From assembly GCA_017792345.1 (NCBI GenBank), contig CP051228.1, forward strand, positions 2,556,501-2,620,500: a stretch of DNA of 64,000 nucleotides, written 5' to 3'. Every line of letters starts with the position of its first letter. The stretch's first letter is position 1. The notes beneath the pieces are model-generated. The model did no database searches and was not told where the DNA came from. It saw only the letters and a program-made list of their open reading frames with translations. Shown one piece after another: positions 19,175 through 35,331 of this stretch. This DNA is from Mesoflavibacter sp. (GTDB lineage: Bacteria > Pseudomonadota > Alphaproteobacteria > UBA8366 > Aestuariispiraceae). Position numbers and translations under genes: made by a program.

Positions 19175-20658
19175 CGCGGCTCCTCCAGCAGACGCAGGAT
19201 CAGTTCGGTCTCCCGTCCGCGGCGGTCCCGGCGCAGGATCGGGTCGAGAACGGTGATTTTCCCAAAAGCCTGCTCGTAGGGCGCGGCGTCATGGGGGGTC
19301 GCCAACAGGACCCGCCCGCCGTCGCGCTGCGGATCGTAGAGCCAGGCCATCTCATAGTGATGGTCGATCTTCGAATCGTGGTTCCAGGCTCGGATCGTGA
19401 CATCGCTGTCGCGCAGGGCATAGGCCAGACTGGCCATCATCAGACGATTGTCCATCAGAAGGACCGTCACATCCTGATCCGCCATTCGGTCGCGCACCGC
19501 GTCGGCGGTTTCCGTCCAGCCATCCAATTCGCCCAGCTTCTTGGCCAGTCCGCGCGGCGCGAAATCGGGGTTCAGGACCACCAGGTAGAACCCGGCCGCG
19601 GCCATGAGGTGAAGTAGGGTCGATCCCAGCAACAGGCGGCGGCGCAGCGTGCTTTGCAGCAGCGCCGCCGTGACCAGGATCGTCGCGGCCGGATAGGCCG
19701 TCGCCGCCCAATTGGCGTTGGCCCTCGATAACAAGGCTTGGATTGAGATCGTCACCAGGACCGGCAGACAGAAAGACAGCAGCAGACGCGCGGGAGCCGA
19801 TAACCGTGCCGACATTTTGCGCGTTACCGGAATGGAAAGCAGCAGCGCGCCGAACAGGACCGGCCCGAAGACGCCGAATTGGGCGCCGAGAAACTCCAGC
19901 ATTTCGCCGGGATGCAGGACGATGCCCTGCCAATGGGCATTATCCGCCGTGTGACCGACCGTCGCCCAGCCGTTGGCAGCATTCCAGGCCACATTGGGCA
20001 GGATCATGGCCGCGCCCAGTGCGAAGCCGCCTGCCAGGTACGGCCATCCTGACTTTAAGGCGCGGCGCGCATCCGCGCAAAGCAGCCAATGGACAATGGC
20101 GCAGAGCAGGAAATAGGCCATGGCGTATTTGGCGTTCAGGCCCAGGCCGAAGGCCAAGGCTAGAACGGCGGCGGCGCGCCAGTCCGGCCGGGTCAGAACG
20201 CGGTGATAGGCCCAGAGCGCCGCCGACCAAAACAGCAGCAGCACCGCGTCGGTCGACATGATCAGGGAGGAGTAGGAGACGGCCGGAATCGTCAGCCAGA
20301 CGATCCCCGTCCACAGGGCGACCCGCCGGTCGAACAGGCTTTGCGCCAGCGCGGTCAGAACGAAGGCCGTTCCGATATGCAACAGGGCGGCCGGCGCCCG
20401 GACGCACCAGGCCGCGTCCCCGCAAACACTCGTCGCGGCGCCGATGACCCAGGCGATCATCGGCGGTTTGGAATAGTACCCGAAGGCGAAGTCGCGCGAC
20501 CAGGTCCAGTACTGCGCCTCGTCGCCGTGCAGCGACAGGTCGGTCAGCAACAGGACGCTGTATCGCACGGCCAGCAGGGCGGCTGCTACGGCGAACAGGA
20601 TCGTCCAGACCGGCCGGTCTTCGCTGGGGGGATGGTCCCCGGCGGCTTGTTCGCGCAT
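19171..20658 (-). CDS. Family 39 (ArnT/PMT-like) membrane glycosyltransferase
   Basis: A 495-residue polytopic protein. The first periplasmic loop has LSLHGDEAQYWTWS, with the conserved D-E pair of GT39 enzymes, followed by YYSKPPMIAW. Around ten hydrophobic segments and a soluble C-terminal domain follow. It would move a sugar from a polyprenyl-phosphate donor to lipid A or a protein in the periplasm. The donor could be made by the GT2 enzyme at 17227 (inference). ATG 20658 follows GAGAGG; a longer reading to 20757 is unsupported. Confidence 0.85.
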   Translation of the reverse strand: MREQAAGDHPPSEDRPVWTILFAVAAALLAVRYSVLLLTDLSLHGDEAQYWTWSRDFAFGYYSKPPMIAWVIGAATSVCGDAAWCVRAPAALLHIGTAFVLTALAQSLFDRRVALWTGIVWLTIPAVSYSSLIMSTDAVLLLFWSAALWAYHRVLTRPDWRAAAVLALAFGLGLNAKYAMAYFLLCAIVHWLLCADARRALKSGWPYLAGGFALGAAMILPNVAWNAANGWATVGHTADNAHWQGIVLHPGEMLEFLGAQFGVFGPVLFGALLLSIPVTRKMSARLSAPARLLLSFCLPVLVTISIQALLSRANANWAATAYPAATILVTAALLQSTLRRRLLLGSTLLHLMAAAGFYLVVLNPDFAPRGLAKKLGELDGWTETADAVRDRMADQDVTVLLMDNRLMMASLAYALRDSDVTIRAWNHDSKIDHHYEMAWLYDPQRDGGRVLLATPHDAAPYEQAFGKITVLDPILRRDRRGRETELILRLLEEPR

Positions 20659-28534: not shown

Positions 28535-29821
28535 TCAGACGTCGATCAGCAGACGCGCCGGGTCTTCCAGCATTTCCTTGATACGGACCAGGAAGGTCAC
28601 GGCTTCGCGGCCATCGATGATCCGGTGATCGTAGGAATGCGCGACATACATCATGCTGCCGACGACGATGTCGCCCTTGGCGTTCACGATCGGGCGTTTC
28701 TGGATCTTGTGCATGCCCAGGATGCCCGATTGCGGCGGGTTGATGATCGGCGTCGACAGAAGCGACCCGAACACCCCGCCATTGGTGATGGTGAAGGTGC
28801 CGCCCTGCATCTCGGCCATGCTCAGCTTGCCGTCACGGGCACGACGGCCGAAATCGGCGATCGCCCCTTCGATTTCGGCGAAGCTCTTCTTGTCGGCGTC
28901 GCGAAGGACCGGGACGACCAGACCCTGAGGCGTGCCGACGGCGATGCCGATATCGTAGTAGTTCTTGTAGATGACCTGGTCGCCGTAGATCTCTGCATTG
29001 ACGGCGGGCAGTTCCTGCAGCGCCGCGACCGCCGCCTTCACGAAGAAGGACATGAAGCCCAGCTTGACCTTGTGCTTCTGTTCGAACTTGTCCTTGTAAT
29101 CGGCGCGGACCTTCATCATCGGGCCCATGTCGATTTCGTTGAACGTGGTCAGCATCGCCGCCGTGTTCTGCGCTTCCTTCAGGCGGGTCGCGATGACCTT
29201 GCGCAGTTTCGACATGCGGACATGTTCTTCGCCGCGCGGGTCGGGCGTGCGTTCCGGCAGGCTCTCATAGGTCGGCGTGGCAGGCTTCGCGCCGCCCACC
29301 GGGGCGGCGGTCGGGGCCGCCGGTTTTGCGGCGGGCGCCGGCGCGGCCGCGCCACCGGATTTCAAATAATTCTGAACGTCTTCCTTGGTCAGATTGCCCT
29401 TCGGGCCGCTGGACGGGATCTTCGCGGCGTCCAGATTGTTCTCGGCAACCATTTTCGCGACCGCCGGGGACAGGGTGTCGTTGGTCGCTGCGGCGGCCGG
29501 TGCGGCGGGCGCCGGGGCCGGCGCAGCAGCGGGCGCTTCCGGTTTTGCCGGTTCGGCCGCCGGGGCGGAGGCTTTGCCGGCCGCCCCTTCCTCGATCCGG
29601 CAGAGCAGCGCGCCGACCTCGACGTCGCTGCCGTCGGCCGCGACGATCTCGGTCAGGGCACCCGCCACGGGGGAGGGCACTTCGATGGTCACCTTATCGG
29701 TTTCCAGCTCCACCAGGGGCTCGTCCTTACCGACGGAATCGCCGACCTGCTTGAACCATTGGATCACGCTCGCTTCGCTGACCGATTCGCCGAGCGTGGG
29801 GACCGTTACATCCGTCGCCAT
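28535..29821 (-). CDS. sucB: 2-oxoglutarate dehydrogenase E2, dihydrolipoyl succinyltransferase
   Basis: A 428-residue E2. The lipoyl domain covers 1-78 with lipoyl K43 in [11 protein letters not shown]. An Ala/Pro linker leads to a peripheral subunit-binding domain at about 115-150, then a second linker. The acyltransferase domain follows, with H399 and D403 in [13 protein letters not shown]. It moves the succinyl group to CoA in the TCA cycle. It is the last gene of sucC-sucD-sucA-sucB; no lpd (E3) follows, so E3 is encoded elsewhere. Confidence 0.97.
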
Positions 29822-29842
29822 AGTATCCTCTCATCTGTCTGG

Positions 29843-29886
29843 CCCGGGGTCTCACCCCTCTGGGCCGTCGGGGCCGTGACCCCGGG
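29843..29886 (-). other. Inverted repeat between sucA and sucB
   Basis: CCCGGGGTC (29843-29851) and GACCCCGGG (29878-29886) can pair around a 26 nt loop that is itself GC-rich. No T-run follows, so it is more likely an mRNA-processing or stabilising structure than a terminator. Confidence 0.45.
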
Positions 29887-29907
29887 TCAAATCCTAAACG
29901 CGTCCGA

Positions 29908-32900
29908 TTACTTCTTCTTGGCCGCCGCCTTTTTGGAAGCAGCCTTTTTTGAAGCAGCCTTCTTGGTGGTCGCCTTCTTTGCCGCCGCCTTTTTGGCCCC
30001 GGCGGCTTTCACCGGGGTCTTTTTCGCGGCGGCTTTCTTCGACACGGCAACCGGGCGGCTGCGTTCCGGCAGGTCCAGTGCCTCGTTCACCAGGGCCGAC
30101 TGTTCGGCGGCATGGCGCTTGGCGCTGCCCGTGGCGGGGGACGCGGCGGCTTCGCGGCCGACATAACGCGGGCGGCCGTTCGGCTTGTGGCTCAGTTCTT
30201 CCAGCACGCGTTCGATGCGCCGGTCGACGAAGAACCAGGCGCCGTTATTTTCCGGCTCTTCCTGACACCAGATCACTTCGGCGTTCGGGAAGCGCGACAG
30301 CTCCGTCGTCACCGCGTGGAACGGGAAGGGATAGAGCTGTTCGACACGCATGATGTAGACGTCTTTGATGCCGCGCGCGTCGCGTTCCGCTTCCAGGTCG
30401 AAATAGACCTTGCCCGAACACAGGACCACACGCCGGATGTCCTCGTCCGCCGCCAGCGTGCCGGTGTTCTGGGCATTGTCCCACAGCACCCGGTGGAAGG
30501 TCGTACCCGGACCGAACTCCTCCAGCTTCGACACACAGGCCTTGTGCCGCAGCAGCGATTTCGGCGTCATCTGGATCAGCGGTTTGCGGAAGTTCCGGCG
30601 CACCTGACGGCGCAGGGCGTGGAAATAGTTGGCCGGCTGCGTGATGTTGCAGACCTGCCAGTTATCCTCCGCCGAAAGCTGCAGATACCGTTCCAGGCGC
30701 GCGGAGGAATGCTCCGGTCCCTGACCCTCGTAACCATGCGGCAGCAACATCACCAGACCGCACATGCGCAGCCATTTGGTTTCGCCCGATGCGATGAACT
30801 GGTCGATGATGACCTGAGCCCCATTGGCGAAGTCGCCGAACTGGGCTTCCCAGAGAACCAGCGAATGCGGTTCCGCCGAGGAATAGCCGTATTCGAAGCC
30901 CAGCAGACCGAATTCGCTAAGCGGGCTGTCGATCACTTCGAACGGCGCCTGTCCCATCCGGATATTGTTCAGCGGGATGTGGCGATGTTCGTTTTCCTGA
31001 TCGACCAGGACCGCATGCCGCTGCGAGAAGGTGCCGCGTTCGCAATCCTCGCCGCTGAGACGGATCGTCGTGGATTCGCAGAGCAATGTCCCGAAGGCCA
31101 GCGCCTCGGCCGTGCCCCAGTCGATGCCTTCGCCGGTTTCGATCATCTTGCGCTTGGCATCCAGCTGGCGCTCGATCTTCGGGTTCAGCTTGAAGTTCTG
31201 CGGCGCCTGGGACAGGGCATGACCGACTTCGCGCAGCAGGTCCATGTCGACCGAGGTGTGGCCGCGACGGGCCCCTTCCTCGGCGATCGACAGGCCGGAC
31301 CACTTGCCTTCCAGCCAGTCGGCCTTGTTCGGCTTGAACGATCTCGCGGCCTCGAAGCTTTCATCCAAGGTTTTCTTGATCTCGGATTTCAGCGCTTCGC
31401 AGCCCGCCTCGTCGATCACGCCCAGTTCCTGCAGGCGCTTGGCGTAGATTTCGCGGGTGCGCGGATGCGACTTGATCTTGGTGTACATCGAAGGCTGCGT
31501 GAACATCGGTTCGTCGCCTTCGTTGTGACCGTGGCGCCGGTAGCACCACATGTCGATCACCACATCCTTCTTGAACTTCTGACGGTATTCCATCGCCAGC
31601 CGCGCGACATGCACACAGGCTTCCGGATCGTCGCCATTCACGTGGAAGACCGGCGCGTCAACCGTCTTCGCCATGTCCGAGCAATAGGGCGAGGAGCGGG
31701 ATTTCGACGGTGCGGTGGTGAACCCGATCTGGTTGTTGATCACGATGTGGATCGTACCGCCGGTCTTGTAGCCGTCCAACTGACTCAGCAGGAAGGTTTC
31801 CGCCACCACACCCTGGCCGATGAAGGCCGCGTCGCCATGCAGCAGCAGGCCCATGACCCGGTCCCTATCGCTGTCGGCGCGCTGGTGCTGCTTGGCGCGC
31901 ACCTTGCCGAGGACGACCGTGTTGACGCATTCCAGGTGGCTGGGATTCGCGGCGAGCGACAGGTGAACGGTCTTGCCTTCGAATTCCCGGTCGGCCGACG
32001 TGCCCAGATGGTACTTCACGTCGCCGGAGCCTTGAACCGATTCCGGTTTGCCCCCCAGACCTTCGAATTCCGCGAAGATCTGCATATAGGGCTTCTTCAT
32101 GATGTTGGCGAGGACGTTCAGGCGGCCACGGTGGGCCATGCCCAGAACCACTTCCTCCAGACCCATCTGCGCGCCGCGCTTGAAGATCTGTTCCATCATC
32201 GGGACCAGGCTTTCGCCGCCGTCCAGGCCGAAACGCTTCGTGCCGCGGTACTTCGTGTCCAGATAGGTTTCGAACATATCCGCGCTGGTCAGGCGTTCCA
32301 GGATCGTCTTCCGGCCCAGGTCGGTGAAGTCCTTGCGGTTCCGGCTGCTTTCGATCTTTTCCTGAATCCAGGATTTCTCGTCCGGGTCCTGAATGTGCAG
32401 GAATTCGACGCCGATGCTGCCGCAATAGGTCTGGCGGCAGATCTTCACGATCTCGCGCACCGTCGCGGATTCGAGGCCCAGATAGTAATTGATGAAGATC
32501 GGGCGATCCATGTCCCGTTCTTCGAAACCATAACTCGCCGGATCCAGTTCCGGGTGGTCATCGCGCTTTTCCAGGCCCAGCGGATCCAGATTGGCGGCCA
32601 GATGGCCCCGCATCCGGTAGGCGCGGATCAGCATCAGGGCGCGGATCGAATCCAGCGTCGCCTGACGGATCTGATCGCTGCCCGCCGCCACGCCACCGCC
32701 TTGCAGTGCGGCGATCAACTGCTGGATCGAATCCGCGCTCAAGTCCGGATCGCTCAACGAGTCGGAAAGGCTCTGCGACCCGCCACCATTGCCCTGGCCG
32801 ACGACGCGGGTGGTGCGTTTGGTCCAGCTCGGCCCCTTATGGTCGTCTTCGAGGATGACCTCGCCCGGTTCCAGGGTCTCGAAATAGGCCGCCCAGCCCG

Positions 32901-33000
32901 GATCGACCGCGTTCGGATCCAGTGCCCATTTGGCGTAGAGTTCGGCGATGTAAGTTTCGTTGGCGCCGAAGAGTTGGGACGATTCGCCGATATACGTCAT
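29908..33000 (-). CDS. sucA: 2-oxoglutarate dehydrogenase E1, with histone-H1-like C-terminal tail
   Basis: A 1030-residue thiamine-diphosphate enzyme that decarboxylates 2-oxoglutarate and succinylates the E2 lipoyl group. The N-terminus SSQLFGANETYIAELYAKW, HGDAAFIGQGVV-VINNQIGFTT (ThDP site) and the late WCQEEPENNGAWFFVD are all normal for E1o. The usual end ASPATGSAKRHAAEQ is followed by an extra tail of about 51 residues (roughly 980-1030). It is made of AKK/ASKK repeats with 18 Lys in its last 43 residues and no acidic residue there. This tail is not part of the family fold. It resembles bacterial H1-like DNA-binding tails. Confidence 0.95.
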   Translation of the reverse strand: MTYIGESSQLFGANETYIAELYAKWALDPNAVDPGWAAYFETLEPGEVILEDDHKGPSWTKRTTRVVGQGNGGGSQSLSDSLSDPDLSADSIQQLIAALQGGGVAAGSDQIRQATLDSIRALMLIRAYRMRGHLAANLDPLGLEKRDDHPELDPASYGFEERDMDRPIFINYYLGLESATVREIVKICRQTYCGSIGVEFLHIQDPDEKSWIQEKIESSRNRKDFTDLGRKTILERLTSADMFETYLDTKYRGTKRFGLDGGESLVPMMEQIFKRGAQMGLEEVVLGMAHRGRLNVLANIMKKPYMQIFAEFEGLGGKPESVQGSGDVKYHLGTSADREFEGKTVHLSLAANPSHLECVNTVVLGKVRAKQHQRADSDRDRVMGLLLHGDAAFIGQGVVAETFLLSQLDGYKTGGTIHIVINNQIGFTTAPSKSRSSPYCSDMAKTVDAPVFHVNGDDPEACVHVARLAMEYRQKFKKDVVIDMWCYRRHGHNEGDEPMFTQPSMYTKIKSHPRTREIYAKRLQELGVIDEAGCEALKSEIKKTLDESFEAARSFKPNKADWLEGKWSGLSIAEEGARRGHTSVDMDLLREVGHALSQAPQNFKLNPKIERQLDAKRKMIETGEGIDWGTAEALAFGTLLCESTTIRLSGEDCERGTFSQRHAVLVDQENEHRHIPLNNIRMGQAPFEVIDSPLSEFGLLGFEYGYSSAEPHSLVLWEAQFGDFANGAQVIIDQFIASGETKWLRMCGLVMLLPHGYEGQGPEHSSARLERYLQLSAEDNWQVCNITQPANYFHALRRQVRRNFRKPLIQMTPKSLLRHKACVSKLEEFGPGTTFHRVLWDNAQNTGTLAADEDIRRVVLCSGKVYFDLEAERDARGIKDVYIMRVEQLYPFPFHAVTTELSRFPNAEVIWCQEEPENNGAWFFVDRRIERVLEELSHKPNGRPRYVGREAAASPATGSAKRHAAEQSALVNEALDLPERSRPVAVSKKAAAKKTPVKAAGAKKAAAKKATTKKAASKKAASKKAAAKKK

Positions 33001-33036
33001 GATATGACAGCTCCCTAAAATGCCGCCCGAACGGTT

Positions 33037-33069
33037 GGGAGGCCGACTTCCATTGAAAGCCGGCCTCCC
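33037..33069 (-). other. Hairpin between sucD and sucA
   Basis: GGGAGGCCG (33037-33045) and CGGCCTCCC (33061-33069) are exact inverted copies around 15 nt. It lies in the 78 bp gap between sucD and sucA. On the minus strand no T-run follows. It may attenuate or protect one part of the mRNA. Confidence 0.5.
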
Positions 33070-33078
33070 GTTTCTCTA

Positions 33079-33953
33079 TCAGCCGCCCATGGCCTTGACC
33101 ATGGTTGAGCCAAGGGCCGACGGGCTGTCGGCTACCAGAATCCCGGCGCTTCGCATCGCCTCCTGTTTGGATTCCGCCGTGCCCTGACCGCCAGAGATGA
33201 TGGCGCCCGCATGACCCATCCGCTTGCCGGGAGGGGCCGTGACACCGGCGATGAAACCGACCATCGGCTTCTTCACCTTCGACTGTTTGACGAATTCGGC
33301 CGCTTCCTCTTCCGCGGTGCCGCCGATCTCGCCGATCATGATGATGCCTTCGGTTTCCGGATCGCCCAGGAATGCTTCCAGGCAGTCGATGAAGTTGGTG
33401 CCGTTCACCGGGTCGCCGCCGATCCCGATACAGGTCGTCTGCCCCAGGCCGGTCGCCGTGGTCTGCGCGACCGCTTCATAGGTCAGCGTGCCCGACCGGG
33501 ACACGACGCCGATTTTGCCGCGCTTGTGGATATGGCCCGGCATGATGCCGATCTTGCACTCGTCCGGCGTGATGACGCCCGGGCAGTTCGGCCCGATCAG
33601 GCGGGTCGTCGAATTGGCCAGCGCGCGTTTGACGCGGACCATGTCCAGGACCGGAATGCCTTCGGTGATGCAGACGGCCAGTTCGACTTCGGCATCGATC
33701 GCTTCCAGGATCGCGTCGGCCGCGAAGGGCGGCGGGACGTAGATCACGGACGCATTGGCGCCCGTCTTCTCGACCGCTTCAGCCACCGTGTCGAATACCG
33801 GCAGGTCGAGATGGGTGGAACCGCCCTTACCGGGGGTGACGCCGCCGACCATCTTGGTGCCATAGGCGATGGCCTGTTCGGAATGGAAAGTCCCCTGCGC
33901 GCCGGTGAAGCCCTGGCAGATGACCTTGGTGTTCTTGTCGATGAGAACGGCCA

Positions 33954-33954
<1 letters not shown>
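33079..33954 (-). CDS. sucD: Succinyl-CoA synthetase alpha subunit
   Basis: A 291-residue protein. It has the CoA-binding Rossmann N-terminus ([19 protein letters not shown]) and the phospho-His loop [17 protein letters not shown] near residue 246. It forms the alpha subunit that carries phosphohistidine when succinyl-CoA is converted to succinate with ATP/GTP. Its ATG shares one base with the sucC stop. Confidence 0.97.
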
Positions 33955-35150
<1,196 letters not shown>

Positions 35151-35331
35151 CGGGTGTGAAATTCCCTTGAAAGCGGGTTGGTAAGTTCGGGCGTCACGCA
35201 CGGGCGGAGCGAGCCGCGAAGGGCTTTGCCTAACAGATTTGCTGTCGCGTCCGGATCGCGCGCGCCGGTCATTCGGTTCCCCCCAATGCCGTGGAGGTTA
35301 TCGTATTCATTCATACGGCTTTGGAGGGGGT

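Follow-up and report, generated by a model that had tools for sequence, protein, structure and literature searches.

A lysine-rich, histone H1-like tail on the E1 subunit of an alphaproteobacterial 2-oxoglutarate dehydrogenase, and similar modules on unrelated proteins

The E1 subunit of 2-oxoglutarate dehydrogenase, SucA, that is encoded in the 64,000-nucleotide stretch of DNA analysed here (the window) runs on past its normal fold into a lysine-rich C-terminal tail. SucA is not special in this, the tail being one instance of a family-wide use of histone H1-like modules on unrelated proteins, and it is better viewed as part of a set of H1-like tails that spans the lineage and reaches TCA cycle enzymes than as an oddity of SucA. 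Tails of this kind are familiar from proteins that handle DNA; the lineage studied here has extended them to core metabolic enzymes, with the lysines held. For the SucA tail we lean, by no great distance, towards a disordered polycation of the H1/Hc2 kind, predicted to bind polyanions without sequence specificity and so to act as a loose tether of the 2-oxoglutarate dehydrogenase complex. A search of the open-licence PMC literature found no description of a lysine-rich SucA or malate dehydrogenase (Mdh) tail, or of a family-wide habit of bearing such tails.

The enzyme, its fold and its tail

The window's sucA (29908..33000, minus strand; from the ORF list and Pfam) specifies a 1030-residue E1 that ends in the lysine-rich tail. 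It lies in the gene order sucC-sucD-sucA-sucB, and neither sucB for the E2 of the same complex (28535..29821), sucD for succinyl-CoA ligase alpha (33079..33954) nor sucC for succinyl-CoA ligase beta (33954..35201 from a mechanically listed start; the true start is probably that of MNIHEYQ), all likewise on the minus strand, has a tail. These partners were also tailless across twelve family genomes (SucC 0/12, SucD 0/12 and SucB none of the 10 complete). That neighbourhood, a 30-row alignment with other E1o sequences, and the domains 2-oxogl_dehyd_N, E1_dh, Transket_pyr and OxoGdeHyase_C, present in that order and all four above their Pfam cut-offs, place the protein among the E1o enzymes. The last of these domains (residues 823-975; 30076..30534, minus strand) marks where the E1 fold normally stops, by Pfam, PDB relatives and an AlphaFold2 model. 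In the 15 distinct matching sequences from the PDB the matched part stops at SucA residue 961-981, and residues 960-975 form the final helix of the model. Residues 981-1030 are modelled at pLDDT 32-36 with no secondary structure; the model, built with 30 sequences and with a mean pLDDT of 73, has some poor core loops and so is informative on tail disorder alone. The view that the tail is no part of the E1 fold, put forward in a sequence-only reading of this DNA, is borne out.

The tail itself (residues 980-1030; 29911..30063, minus strand) is a linker, RSRPVAVS, followed by KKxxx pentads. Nucleotides 29908-30063 comprise 51 codons and the stop, and 18 of the last 43 residues are Lys (binomial P = 3.5e-13 for at least 18 Lys in 43, against a background of 47/979 in residues 1-979). 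The same counts and coordinates had been given from the letters alone, where all 51 residues were described as AKK/ASKK repeats; the numbers are exact, but the first eight residues belong to the linker. Net charge is +20 in the tail versus -25 in residues 1-979. At the DNA level Tandem Repeats Finder detects a diverged 15-nt period (75% matches) over part of the tail repeats. GCT serves for 4 of 18 Ala in the tail versus 1 of 81 in the body of SucA, AAA for 6 of 18 Lys versus 11 of 47, and Ala codon bias is weaker in the tail than in the body. Elsewhere in the window (20075-20125) the same program reports a 24-nt tandem repeat of 2.1 copies.

The best Pfam resemblance of the tail is to the histone H1-like profile HC2 (PF07382), to which residues 985-1029 (29914..30048, minus strand) align at 20.5 bits and E 5.8e-4, short of the cut-off of 40; the H1-like resemblance first noticed in the sequence-only reading stands with that proviso. 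Hc2 is reported to be made of pentamers in which two residues are basic and the other three mostly Ala, its length changing as blocks are duplicated or deleted (PMC2848022), and the SucA pentads follow this scheme, with small residues predominating among the non-basic three. The SucA tail thus shares its pentad build with Hc2 (HctB) of Chlamydia and BpH1 of Bordetella, but they are dedicated histone-like proteins, the type being small, free-standing and basic, whereas the SucA pentads are a short, sub-cut-off tail on a 1030-residue enzyme. Used as a bare query in the window's genome the tail matches other places weakly (best E 0.12), and the weak scores, both of this query and of the profiles, reflect low-complexity resemblance and not homology. 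A DNA pattern for KKAxKK was set aside, its spacing being wrong for the SucA tail and its yield 4 matches versus 1 in a reversed control.

Presence, retention and growth of the SucA tail

Of the 14 genomes of the window's family, 13 have a readable SucA C-terminus (in G004 a contig end cuts sucA), and 12 of these, including all five readable ones of the genus, bear the tail in the corresponding position, and so it is no assembly slip. The sequence-only reading had suggested comparing relatives and had named slippage in the assembly and absence from close relatives as grounds for abandoning the tail; the first falls away and the second does so for the most part, but Curvivirga aplysinae (G010, L042), of the same family, has a SucA that ends without a tail. 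D and E are absent beyond the canonical end in 9 of the 12 family tails, and Lys:Arg is 182:14 in the family end stretches counted, although Arg:Lys is 68:47 in the core of the window's SucA. Over the last 23 codons in five genus members, the 11 Lys columns have 8 amino-acid versus 45 synonymous pairwise differences and the 12 spacer columns 54 versus 48, keeping in mind that end-anchored rows of a repeat align ambiguously and that pairs drawn from five related genomes are not independent. The tail lysines look conserved, and within the genus third bases have turned over with the lysines mostly retained and the spacers freer. Conservation and codon evidence together make the observation stronger than the sequence-only reading had put it.

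Within the family the shortest tail has 17 residues (G006) and the longest 124 (Hwanghaeella grinnelliae; G008, L041), and in the latter an exact 79-nt repeat at offset 75 shows growth by tandem duplication. Such variation, together with the one tailless family member, is what would be expected if the tail were a functionless basic stretch, grown neutrally by 15-nt slippage at a C-terminus that tolerates it. The contrast between Lys and spacer columns, the many tails free of acidic residues, and the presence of the same pattern on unrelated proteins that share no DNA (below) argue the other way. Neutral slippage appears to account for the variation in length and not for the retention of Lys, and as an explanation of the tail as a whole it is unlikely, though far from negligible.

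Beyond the family, a basic tail was scored where at least 6 residues lie past the canonical end with a net charge of at least +4. By that measure sister families have basic SucA tails in 7 of 8 (f3), 6 of 7 (f4) and 1 of 8 (f2) scored genomes; these are shorter than those of the window's family and mix Arg with the Lys. For the named loci outside that set (75, 74 scored) there are Lys/Arg-rich ends in L043, which falls inside f3 in the tree, Denitrobaculum (L084) and Pelagibius (L090), while L058, L078 and L092 pass the score through another type of extension that is not Lys-rich, a type also seen in L069 but there too weak to pass. Elsewhere in the class, 13 genomes from other families were examined at the C-terminus, and none has a Lys-rich SucA tail. 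A class-wide sample of 192 genomes, overlapping in part with the others, gave 149 with a SucA C-terminus at E <= 1e-20, from which 46 C-termini of other families were taken and 44 parsed. The 46 are a non-random choice, 27 being the best-scoring loci and 19 picked mostly for run-on of the alignment or frame; 1 of the 44 is Lys-rich (G139, L304, family f101; 12 K and 5 R), and weaker extensions occur in three more (L302, L305, L308). G139 is a distant alphaproteobacterium whose tail differs in sequence, and so the trait arose independently there. Most other alphaproteobacterial E1o proteins examined have no tail. A tree of 85 rows, made by a quick method and with rows lost to a motif filter, Rhodobacterales above all, counts 7 changes, extensions that are not Lys-rich included. 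Basic SucA tails thus arose more than once, and the long KKxxx form was encountered mainly in the window's family.

Modules on malate dehydrogenase and other proteins

With a profile made from twelve KKxxx stretches, the module is detected at E <= 1e-3 in all 14 family genomes versus 3 of 45 others, several of which are incompletely sequenced, and the contrast is biased upward because the profile was built from this family. The SucA tail of the window is itself just outside the threshold (E 0.0011 with one version of the profile, unlisted at 1e-3 with the final version). Carriers were named from their loci and by Pfam on ten proteins, one per kind, with remaining copies assigned by eye, and they are not a full census. 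Pfam names TopA, YidC, trigger factor, TatB (marginally below the cut-off) and an MscS-like channel in the window's own genome, and malate dehydrogenase, PntA, ribosomal protein L21 and RNase E in relatives. The module is on PntA at L161, L162, L164, L266 and L275, on trigger factor at L034, L158, L159, L265, L267 and L274, on L21 at L186 and L193, on RNase E at L176 and L189, on TatB at L140 and L187, on YidC at L141 and on TopA at L157. No sign of tail DNA copied between genes was seen in any of eight pairs, the longest shared run of each falling inside the range spanned by 30 synonymous shuffles, although that of SucA-Mdh in G007 matches the shuffle maximum (23 nt) and that of G013 nearly does (18 versus 19). 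The different proteins apparently gained their modules in separate events. N-terminal modules also occur, at L031, L257, L259, L261, L269, L271 and L273, by eye on TetR-like regulators for instance, and two ORFs that start with long AKK runs, L268 (251 aa) and L272 (293 aa), are perhaps free-standing H1-like proteins.

The second TCA cycle enzyme concerned, Mdh, has a Lys-rich C-terminal tail in 4 of the 14 family genomes, G008 (L207), G013 (L208), G011 (L209) and G007 (L218), and outside the family in L043, L084 and L090. The Mdh tail of G008 reaches the HC2 cut-off, at 41.0 bits, and in the window's genus none of six Mdh has a tail. With five duplicates between the two genome sets removed, and leaving out Denitrobaculum L084 and Pelagibius L090, whose Mdh tails were called by eye, 10 of 89 genomes have both tails, 16 that of SucA only, 6 that of Mdh only and 57 neither (Fisher P 0.0024, kinship ignored; 0.0016 if only Lys-rich extensions count as tails). 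On the 58 tree rows with both traits there are 4 SucA changes and 6 Mdh changes and only 3-4 independent pairs. A partnership of the two tails, suggested by raw co-occurrence, was dropped because the independent events on the tree are too few. In the window's genome, a single contig of 4.9 Mb, mdh (G000:C1:752305-753234) is far from the suc genes (window 28535-35201), and it is upstream of sucC in 7 of 12 family regions examined.

What the tail may do

In the loose-tether reading towards which we lean, a disordered polycation appended after the finished E1 fold would bind polyanions without sequence specificity. Because a single E2 core takes up many E1 chains, each complex would display many tails at once, so that even weak contacts could sum to a multivalent, salt-sensitive tether. 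The likeliest partner would be nucleic acid, as RNA, ribosomes or nucleoid, given the similar modules on TopA, RNase E, L21, trigger factor and YidC; polyphosphate and anionic membrane are alternatives and, with membrane proteins among the mixed carriers, the partner could be lipid. Catalysis should not require the tail, since a sister species lacks one. Binding of polyanions had been proposed in the sequence-only reading, and the stable Lys columns and the modules on nucleic-acid and ribosome proteins would favour it, with the SucA-specific frame of that proposal given up. The old idea of TCA cycle enzymes held at the nucleoid or RNA is made testable by a 51-residue tail that a close relative dispenses with.

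Among known systems, the lysine-repeat C-terminus of TopA in Actinobacteria, reported in Caulobacter and Bordetella as well, resembles the SucA tail in placing repeats on a catalytic protein, and a TopA so equipped is present in the window's genome too; TopA already acts on DNA, however, and SucA has no known nucleic-acid substrate. PhaF of Pseudomonas associates with polyester granules, and it and AlgP have, as SucA does, a disordered Lys/Ala tail, but one of KPAA tetrads on structural proteins in place of KKxxx pentads on an enzyme. The processivity of actinobacterial TopA is reported to come from its lysine repeats (PMC7398561), nucleoid association of HupB to require a PAKK/KAAK domain (PMC5676037), and AlgP with its KPAA domain to bind DNA and act on polyphosphate granules (PMC9239181). 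Yeast mitochondrial nucleoids are reviewed as holding Aco1, Ilv5, Idh1/2 and Kgd1, and Kgd1, the same E1 subunit as SucA, as being among the main in vivo partners of Abf2, so nucleoid placement of E1 has precedent (PMC7463775). An H1-like tail goes unmentioned in the part of that review that deals with these enzymes, and nucleoid placement of SucA is a proposal from sequence.

A bolder extension of the tether, and a distinctly unlikely one, is that the KKxxx tail serves unrelated proteins of the family as a common address tag, gained separately by each, that would gather SucA, PntA and (where it has a tail, in some genera) Mdh on one polyanionic body along with TopA, RNase E, trigger factor and YidC, be it nucleoid, ribosomes or polyphosphate, and so physically couple central metabolism to the gene-expression machinery. 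If true, bacteria would have an equivalent of the mitochondrial nucleoids with their metabolic enzymes.

The tail could instead be an aid to assembly, helping E1 to bind an acidic lipoyl domain or linker of SucB, whose acidic first 80 residues have a net charge of -12 in the window's genome and average -11.5 in 13 genomes with a SucA extension (including L058 and L078, which are not Lys-rich) versus -9.7 in 46 without. Tailless G010 is at -13 and several other tailless genomes are as low or lower, so that the difference may follow kinship, and over these 13 and 46 genomes SucB N-terminal charge gives no clear signal of co-adaptation of E2 with the SucA tail. With the usual E1 N-terminus intact (Pfam 2-oxogl_dehyd_N) and modules also present on proteins with no E2, Mdh and TopA among them, such a role is quite improbable.

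Nor do we see more than a slim chance that the tail binds anionic phospholipid and so keeps an NADH-producing enzyme near the respiratory chain. Mdh and SucA both contribute to NADH formation, a role that would suit such a tether, and the carriers include the membrane proteins or subunits YidC, TatB, PntA and the MscS-like channel, but TopA, RNase E, L21 and trigger factor are carriers too, and the tail is without large hydrophobic residues for insertion into a bilayer.

Acylation of the tail lysines by SucA's own product, with succinylation tuning or poisoning the enzyme, had seemed attractive from the sequence alone as a peculiarity linked to succinyl-CoA and draws on the excess of Lys over Arg in family tails, but H1-like tails in general prefer Lys, many unrelated proteins that make no acyl-CoA bear the modules, and f3 tails mix in Arg at the same place in SucA (ARRTSRKRKAK, for example), which makes the idea far-fetched.
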